DNA from: Asanoa siamensis
GTDB taxonomy: Bacteria > Actinomycetota > Actinomycetes > Mycobacteriales > Micromonosporaceae
DNA length: 36,393 nucleotides
Assembly (NCBI RefSeq): GCF_016862555.1
Contig: NZ_BONE01000078.1
Location: forward strand, 1 to 36,393
Direction: 5' to 3'
Shown here: positions 23,053-32,233 of the stretch, in pieces
How positions within the stretch are numbered: position 1 is the first letter of the stretch
Layout: every line of letters starts with the position of its first letter
Position numbers and translations under genes: made by a program
Notes under the pieces: generated by a model
What the model saw: the letters and a program-made list of their open reading frames with translations, nothing else
Told to the model about the DNA's origin: nothing
The model's database searches: none

Positions 23053-23096
23053 GGAGGGGATGCCAGGCCGTACGATGCAGGCCGGGCATCCCCTCC
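23053..23096 (+). terminator. Strong hairpin terminator
   Basis: GGAGGGGATGCC (23053-23064) pairs perfectly over 12 bp with 23085-23096, and an inner GGCC-GGCC stem (23066-23069 with 80-83) extends it. It lies 15 bp after the phytase-like gene and 24 bp before the Hsp70-fusion start, so it separates the two genes and may also shape the leader of the second. Confidence 0.75.
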
Positions 23097-23120
23097 GCCC
23101 GTTAAGAGGAGTCGGCAACG

Positions 23121-25751
23121 ATGCAAGGGCACGCGCTCGGGGTCGATCTGGGCACGTCGAACACGGTCGCCGTGCTGCGCTGGCCCGACGGGCGCACCCG
23201 CCCGTTGCTGTTCGACGGTCAACCGCTGCTCCCGTCCGGCGTGCTCCTCGACGAGGCCGGCCGGCTGCACGTCGGTCGCGACGCGCAACGGCTCGCGCAG
23301 GCTGATCCGGCCCGCTACGAGCCCAACCCGAAGCGGTACGTCGACGCGCCCGGTGTGCTGCTCGGCGACCGCGAGGTGGCCACCGTCGACCTGCTCGCCG
23401 CGGTCCTCGCCGCGGTCGCGCACGCGGCCGTCGAAGCGGTCGGCTACCTGCCGCCGGCGACCCTGACCTATCCCGCCGCGTGGGGCGCCCAGCGCCGCCA
23501 GGTGCTGACCGAGGCGCTGTCCCGGGCCGGCTGGCCGGCGGGCACCACGCTCGCGCCGGAGCCGGTCGCCGCCGCCCGCTACTTCGCCGAGGTGCTGCGC
23601 CGCCCGGTGCCGGTCGGCTCGGCCCTCGCGGTCTTCGACTTCGGCGGCGGCACGCTCGACATCGCGGTCGTCCGCAACGACGGCCCGGACCCGTCCGGCC
23701 ACGTCGGCTTCAGCGTGGTCGCGGCCGGCGGTGTCGCGGAACTCGGCGGCCTCGACCTGGACGCGGCGCTGGTCGACCACCTGGGCCGCGGGATCGCCAC
23801 GACGGACCCCGACGCCTGGCAACGGTTGCGGGCTCCGGCCAACGCCGCGCAGTGGCGCGACCGGCGGCGCTTCTGGGACGACGTACGCGGGGCCAAGGAG
23901 ATGCTCTCCCGGGTCGCCGTGGCGCCGGTCGCGGTGCCCGGCGTCGAGAAGGCGGTCCACCTCACCCGCGACGAGCTCGAACGGCTCGCGACGCCGCTGC
24001 TGCGGCGGGCCGTCGTGGAGACCGCAGGGGTGATCGCCGCCGCGAACCTGCGCCCCGACCAGCTCGCCGGGCTCTTCCTGGTCGGCGGCTCGTCCCGGGT
24101 GCCGCTGGTGGCCCGGATGCTGCACGCGGACCTCGGGGTCGCGCCGACCGTGCTCGAGCAGCCCGAGCTGCCGGTCGCGGAGGGGGCGCTGGCGGAGCAT
24201 CGGGTCGCGCACGTCCCGGCGCAGGCCGCGGCGCCGGCGCCTGTGCCGAGCCCGCAGCCCGTCTCGGCGGTGCCGGTTTCCGGGTCGCCGACCTCGCCGG
24301 CGCCCGGCTCGCCGATGCCGGCACCGACCTCGCCCGCCCCTACCTCGCCGGCCGCGCAGTGGGCGCCGCCGCCTGTTGCCGCGCCGCCGCGACGCGTACC
24401 CAAAAAGCTTTTGATCTCCGCGGCAGCCGCCGCCGTGGTCCTGGTCGTCGCCGTCGTCTCGGTGATCATGTTCTTGAACCGGAACGGGTACGACAAGGTC
24501 CCGTTCGCGGCGTTCAGCGACGTCGGCCAGCCACTGTCGATGGCCAACCGGTCCTACTACGTGTGGACGCACACGCTCGGTGACCGCGCCTACTACGCCT
24601 ATCTGACCGACCAGAAGAAGATGACCGTCGTCGCCGCCGACGCCACGACGGGCAAGCAGCTGTGGACCACGCAGGTCATCGATGCCTCCGACAACTGGCA
24701 GGGCATCCGCGCGGTGCCGGGCGCGATCCTGGCCTACGCCGACGCGATCGGCAGCGTCGAGGCGCGCCGGCTCTCGGTGCTGAGCCCCGACAACGGCGAG
24801 CGGCTCTGGTACGTCGACCTGTTCGGCGAGGACGAGACGTTCGTGATCGGCGAACGCCTGGTCGTCGTCGACCGCAAGAACAACAAGATCATCGGGTACG
24901 ACCTGGGCGACGGCACCGAGAAGTGGGCCCACGACTCGCCGAAGGACCAGTACGGCGGCACCACGACCGCGGTCTTCCGGGCGCAGACGAAGAAGGACCT
25001 GGACGGCCCGGCGGACTTCACGGGCGTGGCGCTCGACCCGGACCGCGACGACGACACCCGGCTGGTGCAGATCGGCGCGGACCGCTCCGTACGCGTGATC
25101 GACGCGACCTCGGGCAAGATCAATGCGCAACAGACAGAGGTGGCGGACCCGGGCGACCTGACCACGGTGTACGACGGCCAGCTGTTCACCACGCAGACGA
25201 GCGAGGCGGTCGAGCTGATCGCGGTGAGCCTGGACGCGCTGGACAAGCCGCGCATCGTCTACCGCGCGGACCAGGCGGCCCGGCGGGCGGTCTCGATCAG
25301 CCCGTGCGTCGGCGACCGGATCTGCCTGCTGGAACGCACGGGCGGCGACCTGAAGACCACGCAGCTGGTAGCCCTCCCGACCGGCGACGGCCGCCTGTGG
25401 CGCCAGCCGGCCCACGAGTACGACACGATCGTCCCGGTCGGTTCGCACGTCGTGGTCCAGAGCGACAAATCGGGCGAAGAACATGTTCTTGGTTTCGACG
25501 CGGAGGGCGAGAAGGTCCTCGACACGGCCGGCGTCGCGGCCCGCGTGAACGGTTCGAGCATCCTGCTCTTCGGCAAGCCCCCCAGCACGAGCCCGGGCGA
25601 CTACAACGTGGTGGGTTGGGCGCTGGGCGACCCACAGCCGGTGCAGTTGGGTGCGCTGACGGGGGTGCGCTCGGCCAGCTGCACATGGACCACGAAGGTC
25701 ATCGCCTGCGTCGGCGACGAGGACCTACGCCTGCGGCGCTTCGCGAAGTAG
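23121..25751 (+). CDS. Hsp70-ATPase / transmembrane / PQQ-like beta-propeller fusion protein
   Basis: An 876-residue fusion. Residues 1-360 are an Hsp70/actin-fold ATPase: phosphate-1 loop GVDLGTSNTVAV (7-18), phosphate-2 loop VFDFGGGTLDIAVV (171-184) and adenosine motif LFLVGGSSRVPLV (318-330). The usual Hsp70 peptide-binding domain is absent. Residues 361-425 are a Pro/Ala/Ser/Thr linker. One membrane segment (about 429-453) follows two lysines, predicting a cytoplasmic N-terminus. Residues 460-876 resemble PQQ-type propeller repeats (VVAADATTGKQLWTTQV, LSVLSPDNGERLWYVDLFG, IIGYDLGDGTEKWAHDS). ATG at 23121 follows AGAGGAG. It may couple an outside sensor or scaffold to inside ATPase activity; function unknown. 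Confidence 0.88.
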   Translation: MQGHALGVDLGTSNTVAVLRWPDGRTRPLLFDGQPLLPSGVLLDEAGRLHVGRDAQRLAQADPARYEPNPKRYVDAPGVLLGDREVATVDLLAAVLAAVAHAAVEAVGYLPPATLTYPAAWGAQRRQVLTEALSRAGWPAGTTLAPEPVAAARYFAEVLRRPVPVGSALAVFDFGGGTLDIAVVRNDGPDPSGHVGFSVVAAGGVAELGGLDLDAALVDHLGRGIATTDPDAWQRLRAPANAAQWRDRRRFWDDVRGAKEMLSRVAVAPVAVPGVEKAVHLTRDELERLATPLLRRAVVETAGVIAAANLRPDQLAGLFLVGGSSRVPLVARMLHADLGVAPTVLEQPELPVAEGALAEHRVAHVPAQAAAPAPVPSPQPVSAVPVSGSPTSPAPGSPMPAPTSPAPTSPAAQWAPPPVAAPPRRVPKKLLISAAAAAVVLVVAVVSVIMFLNRNGYDKVPFAAFSDVGQPLSMANRSYYVWTHTLGDRAYYAYLTDQKKMTVVAADATTGKQLWTTQVIDASDNWQGIRAVPGAILAYADAIGSVEARRLSVLSPDNGERLWYVDLFGEDETFVIGERLVVVDRKNNKIIGYDLGDGTEKWAHDSPKDQYGGTTTAVFRAQTKKDLDGPADFTGVALDPDRDDDTRLVQIGADRSVRVIDATSGKINAQQTEVADPGDLTTVYDGQLFTTQTSEAVELIAVSLDALDKPRIVYRADQAARRAVSISPCVGDRICLLERTGGDLKTTQLVALPTGDGRLWRQPAHEYDTIVPVGSHVVVQSDKSGEEHVLGFDAEGEKVLDTAGVAARVNGSSILLFGKPPSTSPGDYNVVGWALGDPQPVQLGALTGVRSASCTWTTKVIACVGDEDLRLRRFAK

Positions 25752-27689: not shown

Positions 27690-29093
27690 CTACGGCCGGG
27701 TCATGCGCAGGACGTCGAGGAGTTCGTCCAGCTGTGCTTCGGTGATCTTGCCGCTGGAGACGTGGCCGCGGTCGATGACCACCGCGCGGATCGAGCGGCC
27801 GCTGGCCAGTGCTTCCTTGGCGATCGAGGCCGCCTCGTCGTACCCCAGGTGGCGGTTGAGCGGGGTGACGATCGACGGCGAACCCTCCGCGTACGCCAGG
27901 GCGACCTCCTCGTTCGCCGCCAGCCCGACCGCGCAGCGGTCGGCCAGCATCCGGGCCGCCGCGGCCAGCAGCCGGATCGACTCGAGGATGTTGCGGGCCA
28001 TCACCGGCAGCATCACGTTGAGCTCGAAGTCGCCCTGCGTGCCCGCGAACGCGATGACCGCGTCGTTGCCGATCACCTGCGCCGACACCTGGCGGACCGA
28101 CTCGCAGACCACCGGGTTGACCTTGCCCGGCATGATCGACGAGCCGGGCTGCAGGTCCGGGATGCGCAGCTCGCCGAGGCCGGCCCGCGGCCCGGAGCCC
28201 ATCCAGCGGATGTCATTGGCGATCTTGTAAAGCCCGACCGCGACGGTACGGAGTTGACCCGAAGCCTCGACCAGGCCGTCCCGGGCACCCTGCGCCTCGA
28301 AGTGGTCGGGTGCCTCGGTCAGCGGCAGCCCCGTGTCGGACCGCAGCCGCTCGATCACCTTCGCCGCGAAGCCGGGCGGGGTGTTGACTCCGGTGCCGAC
28401 GGCGGTGCCACCCAGCGGCAGTTCGGCCAGCCGCGGTACGGCCGACTCGAGGCGGGCGATGCCGTTGCGGACCTGGGTGGCGTACCCGCCGAACTCCTGG
28501 CCCAGGGTCACCGGCGTCGCGTCCATCAGGTGGGTCCGGCCGGCCTTGACCACGGTGGCGAACTCGGTCGCCTTGGCGGCCAGCGCCGAGCCGAGGTGGT
28601 CCAGCGCGGGGATCAGCTCGTTGACGACGGCCTCGGTGGCCGCGAGGTGGATCGACGAGGGATAGACGTCGTTGCTCGACTGCGAGGCGTTGACGTGGTC
28701 GTTGGGATGCACGTCGCGACCCAGCTCCCGGGCGGCGAGGGTGGCGATCACCTCGTTGGCGTTCATGTTGGACGAGGTGCCCGACCCGGTCTGGAACACG
28801 TCGATCGGGAACTGGTCGTCGAACCCGCCACCGGCGACGTGCGCGGCGGCGACCTGGATCGCGGTGGCCAACTCGGCGTCGATCACCCCCAGCGAGCCGT
28901 TGACGGCGGCCGCGGCCCCCTTGATCTGCGCGAGCGCCCGGATGTTGCCCGGCTCGATGCCCCGCCCCGACACCGGAAAGTTCTCGACCGCCCGCTGCGT
29001 CTGGGCCCGCCACAACGCCTCGGCCGGCACCCGCACCTCACCCATGGTGTCCCGCTCGACGCGGAACCCGTTCTCCTCAACCGCAGTCACCAC
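27690..29093 (-). CDS. fumC: Fumarate hydratase, class II
   Basis: A 467-residue member of the fumarase/aspartase superfamily that interconverts fumarate and malate in the TCA cycle without iron. Family motifs are [10 protein letters not shown] (102-111), the catalytic histidine H188 in GRTHLMDA, and the signature loop [11 protein letters not shown] (317-327) with its catalytic serine. MPGKVNP fits fumarase rather than a distant relative. GTG at 29093 follows GGGGGAGG; a second GTG at 29090 is equally possible. It lies 45 bp after the class I fumarase gene in the same direction and is likely cotranscribed. Confidence 0.95.
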
Positions 29094-29138
29094 CCCATCC
29101 TCCCCCGACCACGGGAAGCACGCAGAGTGATCCAGGCC

Positions 29139-30806
29139 CTAGGAGCGGCGGCCGACCGTGAGGACCGGCTTGGTGACCTCCGCGAAGAAGTCGTTGCCCT
29201 TGTCGTCCACCACGATGAAGGCCGGGAAGTCCTCCACCTCGATCTTCCAGATCGCTTCCATGCCCAGCTCCGCGTATTCCAGCACCTCGACGTGCTTGAT
29301 GCAGTCCTGTGCCAGCCGGGCCGCCGGGCCGCCGATCGAGCCCAGGTAGAAACCCCCGTGGTCCGCGCAGGAGCGGGTCACCTGGGCCGAGCGGTTGCCC
29401 TTCGCCAGCATCACCTGGGAGCCGCCCGCCGCCTGGAAGCGGGCCACGTACGAGTCCATCCGGCCCGCCGTCGTCGGGCCGAACGAACCCGACGCGTAGC
29501 CCTCCGGCGTCTTCGCCGGGCCCGCGTAGTAGACCGCGTGGTCGCGCATGTAGGAAGGCATGGGCTCGCCCGCGTCCAGCCGCTCCGCCAGCTTCGCGTG
29601 CGCGATGTCCCGGGCGACCACCAGCGGGCCGGTCAGCGACAGCCGGGTCTTCACCGGGTACTTCGACAGCTCCGCCCGGATCTCGTCCATCGGCCGGTTG
29701 AGGTCGATCCGCACGACCTCGCTCGTGTCGAGCTGGGCGTCGGTCACCTCCGGGAGGAACCGGGCCGGGTCGGTCTCCAGCCGCTCCAGCCAGACGCCCG
29801 ACGGCGTGATCTTGGCGACCGCCTGGCGGTCGGCCGAGCACGACACCGCGATGGCGACCGGGCAGGAGGCGCCGTGCCGGGGCAGCCGGACGACCCGCAC
29901 GTCGTGGCAGAAGTAGCGGCCCCCGAACTGCGCGCCGATGCCGAACTGCCGGGTCAGCTCCAGCACCTCGGCCTCCAACGACAGGTCGCGGAAGCCGTGC
30001 GCCGACAACGAACCCGCGGTCGGCAACCCGTCGAGATATTTCGCCGATGCCAGCTTCGCCGTCTTCAGCGCGTGCTCCGCGGAGGTGCCGCCGATGACGA
30101 CGGCCAGGTGGTAGGGCGGGCAGGCCGACGTGCCGATCAGCCGCAGCTTCTCCTCGAGGAACTGCATCATCCGCGTCGGGTTCAGCAGCGCCTTGGTCTC
30201 CTGGTAGAGGAACGACTTGTTGGCCGACCCGCCGCCCTTGGCCATGAAGAGGAACTTGTAGGCGTCCGGGGCACCGCCCGGGTCCTCCGCGTACAGCTCG
30301 ATCTGGGCCGGCAGGTTGGTGCCGGTGTTGCGCTCTTCCCACATCGTGATCGGCGCGAGCTGCGAATAGCGGAGATTCAGCCGGGTGTACGCCTGGAAGA
30401 CGCCCCGGGCGATCGCCGCCTCGTCGGTGCCGTCCGTCAGGACGTGCCGGCCCCGCTTGCCCATCACGATCGCCGTGCCCGTGTCCTGGCACATCGGCAG
30501 CACGCCGCCCGCTGCGATGTTCGCGTTGCGCAGCAGGTCGAGCGCCACGAACCGGTCGTTCGGCGACGCCTGCGGGTCGTCGATGATGGACCGCAGCTGG
30601 GTGAGGTGCGCCGGGCGCAGGTAGTGCGCGATGTCGTGCATCGCTTCCGCGGTGAGCGCGGTGAGCACCGCCGGGTCGACGGTGAGGAACTGCCGGCCGC
30701 CCGGTCCCTTGACGACGTCGACGCCCTCGTCGGTGATCAACCGGTATTCAGTCAGATCGTCGCCCGTGGGCAACAGCGGCGAGTAGCGGAAGGCGTCGGC
30801 GCTCAT
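29139..30806 (-). CDS. fumA: Fumarate hydratase, class I (iron-sulfur)
   Basis: A 555-residue [4Fe-4S] fumarase. The three cluster cysteines are C106 ([10 protein letters not shown]), C229 (TSACPPYH) and C323 (SCSADRQ), matching the C105/C224/C318 spacing of E. coli FumA. The N-terminal alpha and C-terminal beta domains are fused, as in that enzyme. It catalyses the same reaction as FumC but is oxygen- and iron-sensitive. ATG at 30806 starts 11 bp after the PQQ-propeller stop and lacks a good ribosome-binding site. A PQQ-fumA-fumC operon is likely. The symbol follows E. coli usage. Confidence 0.94.
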
Positions 30807-30817
30807 GAGGAGCCAGC

Positions 30818-32233
30818 CTAGCGGCCCTTGCAGACCTCCTGTTTGGGCCCGCCACACTCCGGCCAGTCGTCGCCCGGGTTGCCCGGATTGCCGCCTGTGG
30901 GCGCCGGGTTCGGCGCGGCGGCGCCGCCGAACGGCAGGTACGCCATGTCGCGTCCCTTGACGATGATCATGCCGGCCGGGCCGACCGCCAGCACGTCGGC
31001 GTCGGAGCGCACGTTGACGAGCTCCGCGCCGGTGCCGGGGTTGACCGCGATGATCTTGTCGGGTTTCTCGTCGACCACCACCAGGGCGGGCGGGGTCAGC
31101 GCCACGTGGCTCTTCGGCGCGGCCGCCCGCTGGAAGCGCTGGCGTCCACCCAGCTCGACGCTGCGGACGGCACCCCCGTCGGCGGTACGCGCGATCGCGT
31201 AGCGATCGTCCACCCCGAGCAGCCGCTCGCCCGGCGCGCCGGTGAACAGGGCCCGGCCGTCGTACGCGTCGATCACGAGCTCGCGGGCGTCCGCCGCGAC
31301 CCCGACGATCACGTTGCGCCCGCCGGCGGGATCGTCGCGCTGGGCGCAGCCGCCGTCCTTCGCCGTACGCAGGTTGATGCCGGCGTTGCGCCACACCTCC
31401 CCGCCCGTGGCGGCGTCGGTCGCGACCACCGAGAAGTAGCACGTCCCGTCGGCGGCGACCGCCTTGATCCGGAGCACCCGCCCGCCGACCACCACGACCC
31501 GCTCGTCGCGTTCCGGCGTGAGCTCGCGGACGACCTGGCCGGCGGCGGTGTCCACGATGAAGACCTGGTCGTCGATCGGCAGCCCGAGCATCGGCGGCAT
31601 CTGCTCGGGCCCGCCCGCGTTGGCGTCGATCCGCTTGGTGGTAATCGGCTGGGTGCCGAGGATGTCGGGGTTGTCGGCGAACAGCACGAAGCCGATGCCG
31701 GGGATCTGCACCGTCCACCGTGGGCTGCTGCCCAGCGGGTCCCAAGCCGACAGGATGCAGTCCTCGGGCCCGTGGCAGCGCACGTCGAGCATGCCGTTGC
31801 GGTAGGTCCAGACCGCCCGCGCCTCGGTGTCCTTGCGGCGCACCGAACCGGACGTCGGGTCGACGACCTCGTACCCCTTGACCAGCAGCTTGCCCGTCAC
31901 CACGACGGAGCCGGCGCCCTCACCGGCGACGGCGGCCCAGTCGGCCTTGTGCTCCCAGAGCTGGGCGCCGGAGGTCAGGCTGCGCGACTCGACGATCGTG
32001 CGGTGCTCGATGACCACCGCGCCGCCGGCGATGGTGGCGCTGCGGGGCGTGCCGCCGAGCTGTTGCTGCCAGAGCGGCGCCGGGGTGGTCATCGGGCTGG
32101 ACGTGTTGACCATGGCCCAGACCTTGTCGAGCAGCGGGGTGAGCACGCCGGTGAAGTAGCCCACGACAAGGAGGACCACCACGAACACGGCCCAGCACTT
32201 CACACAGGGGCCATTACCCCTAGCCACGGCCAC
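30818..32233 (-). CDS. Membrane-anchored PQQ-like beta-propeller protein
   Basis: A 471-residue protein with one N-terminal membrane segment ([21 protein letters not shown], about 13-33) and an extracytoplasmic propeller-like domain: [50 protein letters not shown] and [14 protein letters not shown] are PQQ-type blade motifs. Six cysteines in the outer part may form disulfides, and the tail is Pro/Gly/Asn-rich. It lacks the Hsp70 ATPase half of the fusion at 23121-25751 but shares its propeller style. GTG at 32233 is uncertain; nearby GTGs at 32227 and 32206 would give slightly shorter proteins. Placement 11 bp ahead of fumA suggests cotranscription without an evident functional link. Confidence 0.8.

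Follow-up and report, generated by a model that had tools for sequence, protein, structure and literature searches.

The window, i.e. the whole stretch of DNA that was analysed, comprises 36,393 nucleotides of Asanoa siamensis (contig NZ_BONE01000078.1 of assembly GCF_016862555.1) and contains a gene for a protein of 876 amino acids which joins, in this order, an Hsp70-type nucleotide-binding domain (NBD), a Pro-rich linker, a membrane helix and a PQQ/BamB-like domain, hereafter the ectodomain (Table 1). The open reading frame (ORF) runs from an ATG at 23121 to a stop codon ending at 25751 with zero internal stops, and upstream of the ATG it stays open for 5 more codons only (881 amino acids). 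Third-position GC is high in all parts (NBD 0.95, Pro-rich linker 0.86, helix 0.92, ectodomain 0.89–0.97), so that the single frame looks coding throughout. A full-length orthologue of the fusion is present in all six genomes of the genus that were searched (the window's included), and NBD, linker, helix and ectodomain lie in one frame in 19 of the 20 host-family loci that were retrieved from outside the genus. The remaining locus (G198, L189), in which the fusion is split across two overlapping frames, was left out of the orthologue set, as was one weak match from the host family (G174); the set comprises 25 sequences, namely the window's protein, five genus relatives and the 19 from other genera. 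A previous interpretation made without database searches (the sequence-only reading) had treated the protein as a true fusion, with a sequencing error that makes two frames look like one as the alternative. Such a frame error, or the chance joining of two genes, could be argued from the split locus, but it is opposed by the single open frame in 25 sequences and by the high third-position GC across the join, and its probability is negligible. The fusion is a real, conserved protein and not a frame error.

The first part of the protein is matched by the Pfam HSP70 family at residues 84–356 (E = 8.7e-21), the match stopping at position 368 of the 599 of the profile. In the full-length AlphaFold model, run with an alignment of 36 rows whose other 35 are Hsp70 NBDs covering the NBD alone, residues 1–360 mostly have predicted local distance difference test (pLDDT) scores of 80–98, with 73 in the lowest ten-residue block, and the matches listed by Foldseek for this model (50) are all Hsp70-type proteins. 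The phosphate-1, phosphate-2 and catalytic residues of the Hsp70 NBD are present and invariant in all 25 orthologues, where D9, T12, K71, E147, D173, G175–G177, T178 and D180 show no exchange and the neighbouring R72 is kept in 22. This agrees with the complete Hsp70 nucleotide-binding motifs reported by the sequence-only reading, and is consistent with ATPase activity. Kinase families gave no Pfam match in the 876-residue protein up to E = 1.

The differences from DnaK are found after the NBD and at one site within it. No C-terminal peptide-binding domain was found, as had been claimed from the sequence: the HSP70 match ends as described and is followed by the linker, the helix and the PQQ-like domain. 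The interdomain linker of Hsp70 is hydrophobic, of the VLLLDV type; it is seen in both DnaKs that were aligned and is absent in all 17 aligned rows from the membrane-anchored family defined below. The residues contacting J-proteins, which we take to be an Arg, an Asn and a Thr near the catalytic Glu from their positions in DnaK, are partly changed: Asn and Thr are replaced in all 25 orthologues, and the Arg position holds Arg in 17.

Beyond the NBD, the AlphaFold model has a disordered stretch, a lone helix at residues 428–454 and a poorly resolved, beta-rich remainder, and the mean Kyte-Doolittle hydropathy across residues 434–452 is 2.96, in line with the Pro-rich linker and single membrane segment of the sequence-only reading. 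The linker varies from 53 to 269 amino acids across the 25 orthologues. Pfam PQQ_2 matches residues 501–612 with E = 1.4e-13 (1.4e-14 with the ectodomain alone as query), and the best match in the PDB to a profile of six orthologous ectodomains is BamB (E = 1.1e-9), over stretch 39–149 of 421, i.e. roughly the first third of the ectodomain; the quinoprotein family PF01011 stays under its cut-off (14.2 and 16.3 bits vs 26.7). The profile matches are compatible with the PQQ-type propeller that had been proposed, but the single-sequence structure model of the ectodomain is poor (pLDDT 43) and shows neither a closed propeller nor a number of blades. A home-made count of blade motifs, which gave three clear motifs and was equalled by 225, 3 and 34 of 1000 shuffles at three thresholds, was not relied on. 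There is no N-terminal signal peptide by sequence, and the propeller-like part comes after a domain of cytosolic type and an internal helix. Lysines and arginines within 12 residues of the helix are more numerous on the NBD side in 24 of the 25 orthologues (with one tie), and all four cysteines of the window's protein, which are invariant in the set, are in the ectodomain. This points to the NBD being inside and the ectodomain across the membrane, and so favours the placement of the propeller that the sequence-only reading had suggested.

Table 1 Features of the fusion gene and of the gap upstream of it (positions in the window).
Feature	Position	Strand	Basis
Complete fusion gene (876 aa), made up of the four parts listed next	23121..25751	+	ORF, Pfam, AlphaFold, orthologues
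Hsp70-type NBD, residues 1–358	23121..24194	+	Pfam, AlphaFold, Foldseek, orthologue alignment
Pro-rich linker, residues 359–428, predicted disordered	24195..24404	+	AlphaFold, orthologue alignment
Single membrane helix, about residues 429–453; RRVPKK on NBD side	24405..24479	+	Hydropathy, AlphaFold, orthologues
PQQ/BamB-like domain, residues 455–876 (422 aa), presumed extracytoplasmic	24483..25748	+	Pfam, profile match, orthologues
Possible disulphide between Cys729 and Cys735, both invariant in 25 orthologues	25305..25325	+	Alignment
Possible disulphide between Cys854 and Cys863, both invariant in 25 orthologues	25680..25709	+	Alignment
Ribosome-binding site GAGGAG, 9 nt 5' of ATG	23106..23111	+	Read from sequence
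Strong hairpin in gap between phytase-like gene and Hsp70 gene	23053..23096	+	12-bp main stem, -37 kcal/mol

A second PQQ-like protein is encoded in the window (30818–32233, reverse strand), with an N-terminal hydrophobic segment and a PQQ_2 match of 31.2 bits; its gene is flanked by fumarase-like genes on one side and by the gene of an Lrp-like regulator on the other (names assigned by eye). Kinship of the ectodomain with this protein, or with other PQQ proteins of the genome, was considered and dropped, the signal being too weak to use.

The two halves of the fusion are conserved to different degrees. Among the six genus sequences, 291 of 358 positions are invariant in the NBD and 174 of 422 in the ectodomain; across the 25 orthologues the figures become 122/358 for the NBD, 0/70 for the linker, 1/26 for the helix and 12/422 for the ectodomain. 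The four cysteines of the window's protein account for four of these twelve ectodomain positions. In the six genus orthologues they keep their places in the alignment and are the only cysteines, and 8 of the 25 orthologues have one or two extra cysteines ahead of the helix. In the 19 orthologues from outside the genus the ectodomain is 416–427 amino acids long. The mean ratio of nonsynonymous to synonymous substitution rates (dN/dS), taken over 15 pairs of genus genomes, is 0.14 for the NBD, 0.53 for linker plus helix and 0.49 for the ectodomain, a pattern that fits a conserved machine inside and a fast-changing, possibly recognition, part outside. A search with the ectodomain profile in 200 genomes of the host's order, which scored at most 8 candidates per genome so that misses are possible, gave matches at E ≤ 0.001 in 24 of them. 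Host-family genomes in this sample match in 22 of 29 cases, 18 of them at E < 1e-87, and the two matches outside the host family are weak (E about 3e-4).

The protein has relatives in its own genome, with which it forms what we define here as a membrane-anchored Hsp70-like family: an NBD, a Pro-rich linker and one helix, the NBD standing apart from DnaK in sequence. The propeller protein (on contig C78) has all of these. The genome holds nine Hsp70-like places, plus a marginal match of 24 residues on contig C46. One of the nine is DnaK (C42), one is Hsp70-like without a clear membrane helix (C24), and seven are membrane-anchored, two of these being broken. In the paralogues on C54 and C4 the helix is at the C-terminus, with 3 or 23 residues past it; those on C6 and C1 have ectodomains of 176 and 162 amino acids. 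The C9 paralogue has an ectodomain resembling that of C6 by eye and is interrupted by an in-frame TAG, and the C23 paralogue, with a small ectodomain, looks broken through internal loss. The same arrangement of NBD, linker and helix hence carries a propeller-like domain, a small ectodomain or none. Sixteen rows with a helix were tabled, including members from outside this genome (the SMJS1 Hsp70, L124, annotated as two ORFs, was left out of this table), and their ectodomain cysteines number 0, 2 or 4.

A tree built from 20 NBDs separates the membrane-anchored kind (16 rows, of which 15 have a helix, while the ORF of L126 as annotated stops before any helix) from the two DnaKs, from C24 and from an Hsp70 of Nostoc with support of 100/99; within it the propeller protein, C54, C4 and C6 group at 97/98. 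L125, in which the motif was not found, was left out of this tree, which carries a long-branch warning, for C1 and C24 above all. Proteins of the C54 and C4 types, assigned by helix and length and not by tree, are tail-anchored in all five other genus genomes. Judged by sequence, the propeller protein is one branch of a membrane-anchored Hsp70-like family with interchangeable ectodomains.

The resemblance to BamB raises the possibility that the protein is an anchored assembly factor, in which envelope proteins would be scaffolded or held outside by the BamB-like propeller while the ATPase inside would only gate its clustering, without any inward signal. Besides the BamB profile match, the retention of ectodomain length and cysteines while the sequence drifts speaks for it. 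However, BamB acts in an outer-membrane complex, the domain is here fused to an ATPase whose catalytic residues are invariant, and paralogues with a related NBD have no ectodomain at all. We regard this explanation as somewhat unlikely.

The order cysS, phytase-like gene, fusion gene and convergent ABC ATPase gene is kept in all six genus genomes, and an rlmB-like gene lies between cysS and the phytase-like gene in all three genus loci examined for it (the window's and those of two relatives). Outside the genus, the gene comes after cysS and an rlmB-like gene in three loci from two other genera. In a third genus, a trigger-factor-like gene is near in 10 of 17 loci, 9 of which also have a ClpP-like and 4 a ClpX-like gene (by eye). 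No phytase-like match came from the 20 orthologous loci outside the genus. The gap of 83 bases between the phytase-like gene and the fusion gene holds a very stable hairpin, which has no T run, is absent among the terminator-like sites predicted, and may mark the end of the upstream phytase-like transcript. An operon with the phytase-like gene was set aside given this hairpin and the missing phytase-like match in the other genera, the hairpin being in itself no proof against it. No GTPase gene was recognised as a neighbour of the propeller gene, and no secretion gene among its conserved neighbours. The sequence-only reading had seen in the fusion the best candidate for an undescribed system in the window; no neighbour is common to the four genera, and a self-contained system there is unsupported. 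A membrane-tethered chaperone or a secretion ATPase could be read from the Hsp70-type NBD with its intact ATPase residues, and the trigger-factor-like neighbours would suit the former, but the peptide-binding domain and the interdomain linker are missing and no conserved neighbour is a recognised secretion gene, which makes either role very unlikely.

Relatives of the protein do have telling neighbours elsewhere. A search of a plasmid collection with the NBD gave 40 records, of which 13 were opened (12 actinobacterial ones and one from Nostoc); the 27 unopened ones include 12 from Prescottella. Nine of the 12 actinobacterial records have a dynamin-family or GTPase gene close to the membrane-anchored Hsp70, a count that stands without a background rate and corresponds to fewer than nine independent cases because some of the plasmids are near copies. 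Pfam Dynamin_N is matched in 7 of the 9; among the nine, the dynamin-family or GTPase gene is on the opposite strand in one record and is a short annotated fragment in another. The three remaining records have no such gene near. These cousins come from Gordonia, Rhodococcus and Nonomuraea, and the dynamin-linked rows do not form a single clade in the NBD tree. On the Gordonia and Rhodococcus plasmids (L027, L122, L123, L124, L127, L128 and L129) dynamin-family or GTPase genes are near the Hsp70-family gene, and L128 has two Hsp70 genes in a row. In Nonomuraea gerenzanensis (L026:6192-12130) a dynamin-family GTPase, a membrane-anchored Hsp70 and a caspase-domain protein are encoded consecutively, possibly as a conflict system.

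The genome of the window contains a comparable cluster on C1 (L013:4034-14042), consisting of an IniB-like gene, two dynamin genes, a small reverse gene, the Hsp70 gene and a LuxR-type regulator gene. Its IniB match reaches 22 bits, under the family cut-off of 40. This run, with the LuxR-type regulator gene included, is found in all six genus genomes (L146–L150 for the other five). On contig C54 (about 28577–30616 and 42397), a second dynamin pair and the tail-anchored Hsp70 paralogue are separated by about 12 kb. The propeller protein might be one of several regulators whose ancestral job was the control of a membrane-remodelling, dynamin-like GTPase pair, itself acting in trans on the genome's dynamin pairs from elsewhere. 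The plasmid neighbours, the cluster kept throughout the genus and the second pair near another paralogue all speak for such a role. Against it, Dynamin_N has no match on the window's contig, and the two C1-cluster dynamins, used as queries, have none in the 20 other-genus loci to which that search was applied (the five genus loci being outside it). With the three records lacking a dynamin and the scatter of the linked rows in the tree added, we consider regulation in trans unlikely.

The reading we prefer, though tentatively and at something short of an even chance, is that of an ATP-dependent membrane switch or receptor which couples recognition outside to an Hsp70-type module inside. It would be a single-pass membrane protein with a cytoplasmic N-terminus, whose propeller-like domain would bind a ligand or an envelope partner outside. 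Through the flexible Pro-rich linker and the helix, which connect both halves, ligand state or crowding outside would alter the nucleotide state or the self-association of the NBD inside; the NBD, changing its conformation or self-association with ATP binding and hydrolysis, would in turn bind or release a cytosolic partner. The cousins linked to dynamins suggest a part in envelope maintenance. Such a switch would not handle peptide clients in the manner of DnaK, as it has neither the peptide-binding domain nor the allosteric linker. Where the sequence-only reading had left a choice between a signalling and a secretion ATPase, a receptor-like role is plausible and a secretion ATPase finds no support.

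Several observations weigh against the switch. The loss of J-protein contact is not clear-cut, because Arg is kept in the 17 orthologues mentioned above. Two paralogue types (C54 and C4) are without an ectodomain, so that outside sensing is not essential to the membrane-anchored family; they suggest that a membrane-bound NBD can serve a purpose even where nothing is sensed. Much of the ectodomain may be weakly constrained, because its dN/dS is near that of the disordered linker and helix, and the seven host-family genomes without an ectodomain match may be cases where it is dispensable or was overlooked. The lack of a neighbour gene shared by all four genera counts here as well, and the trigger-factor- and ClpP-like neighbours could favour a proteostasis role. 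A wider generalisation is possible but doubtful: the protein could belong to an actinobacterial class of one-protein receptors with an Hsp70-type ATPase in the kinase's place, in which ectodomains would be swapped on one conserved chassis of NBD, linker and helix, a membrane-remodelling, dynamin-like GTPase pair would be the output in several branches (an envelope-stress response run by an Hsp70 switch), and the propeller branch would sense an extracytoplasmic ligand.

Other collections were searched as well. One scan of GTDB contigs gave a single relative, an ordinary DnaK with DnaJ adjoining. For viral contigs, 80 loci were kept of at least 579 relatives found with query A1, all at 24–29% identity, and none was found with query A2 or with the ectodomain. 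In the plasmid collection the ectodomain alone matched nothing while the NBD alone gave matches, and the best hit in PADLOC has E = 0.3. The plasmid records mostly label the cousins "Hsp70 family protein". Full-text literature searches turned up no description of an Hsp70 that spans the membrane and bears a propeller, nor of the dynamin link; their scope leaves out most subscription journals and all preprints, and they are hence weak evidence of novelty.

In the Hsp70 chaperones the ATPase drives a peptide clamp. If a conserved family has dropped the clamp, kept the core ATPase residues and placed the ATPase at the inside end of a protein that spans the membrane, it would demonstrate reuse of the Hsp70 engine as a membrane switch; the dynamin-like GTPases linked to it in other branches are a concrete candidate partner, and the tail-anchored paralogues without an ectodomain are natural controls. 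With the DnaK/Hsp70 chaperones the protein shares the NBD fold and the ATPase motifs; it differs from them in having no peptide-binding domain or hydrophobic linker, a partly changed J-protein site, and an added membrane helix and ectodomain. With BamB and the PQQ propeller proteins it shares the sequence profile of the ectodomain. BamB is a lipoprotein working in an outer-membrane complex, whereas the present protein is no lipoprotein by sequence, is joined to a cytosolic ATPase and stays under the PF01011 cut-off. The iniBAC operon is the dynamin operon of mycobacteria, and relatives of the protein likewise adjoin an IniB-like gene (with the sub-threshold match given above) and two dynamins, neighbours which the propeller-bearing form lacks.

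A further parallel is offered by the GAP1-N2 GTPase-centred conflict systems, mainly of actinobacteria and firmicutes, some of which are described as containing an HSP70 without a peptide-binding domain that is likewise GTPase-linked (PMC7159879). Transmembrane segments are assigned there to the GTPase, to GAP1 and to further variable components, and the HSP70 is not described as membrane-bound in the passages concerned (PMC7159879). The propeller gene differs also in having no recognised GTPase neighbour. Actinobacterial receptor Ser/Thr kinases (AfsK, PknD and PknB) have propeller or PASTA ectodomains, and consist of a catalytic module, one helix and a repeat domain beyond. Kinases with PQQ or NHL repeats, and a fusion of a kinase with HSP70, are described in an earlier account (PMC1262709). 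The protein described here shares the layout of the receptor kinases and differs from these receptors in that its catalytic module is an Hsp70-type ATPase.

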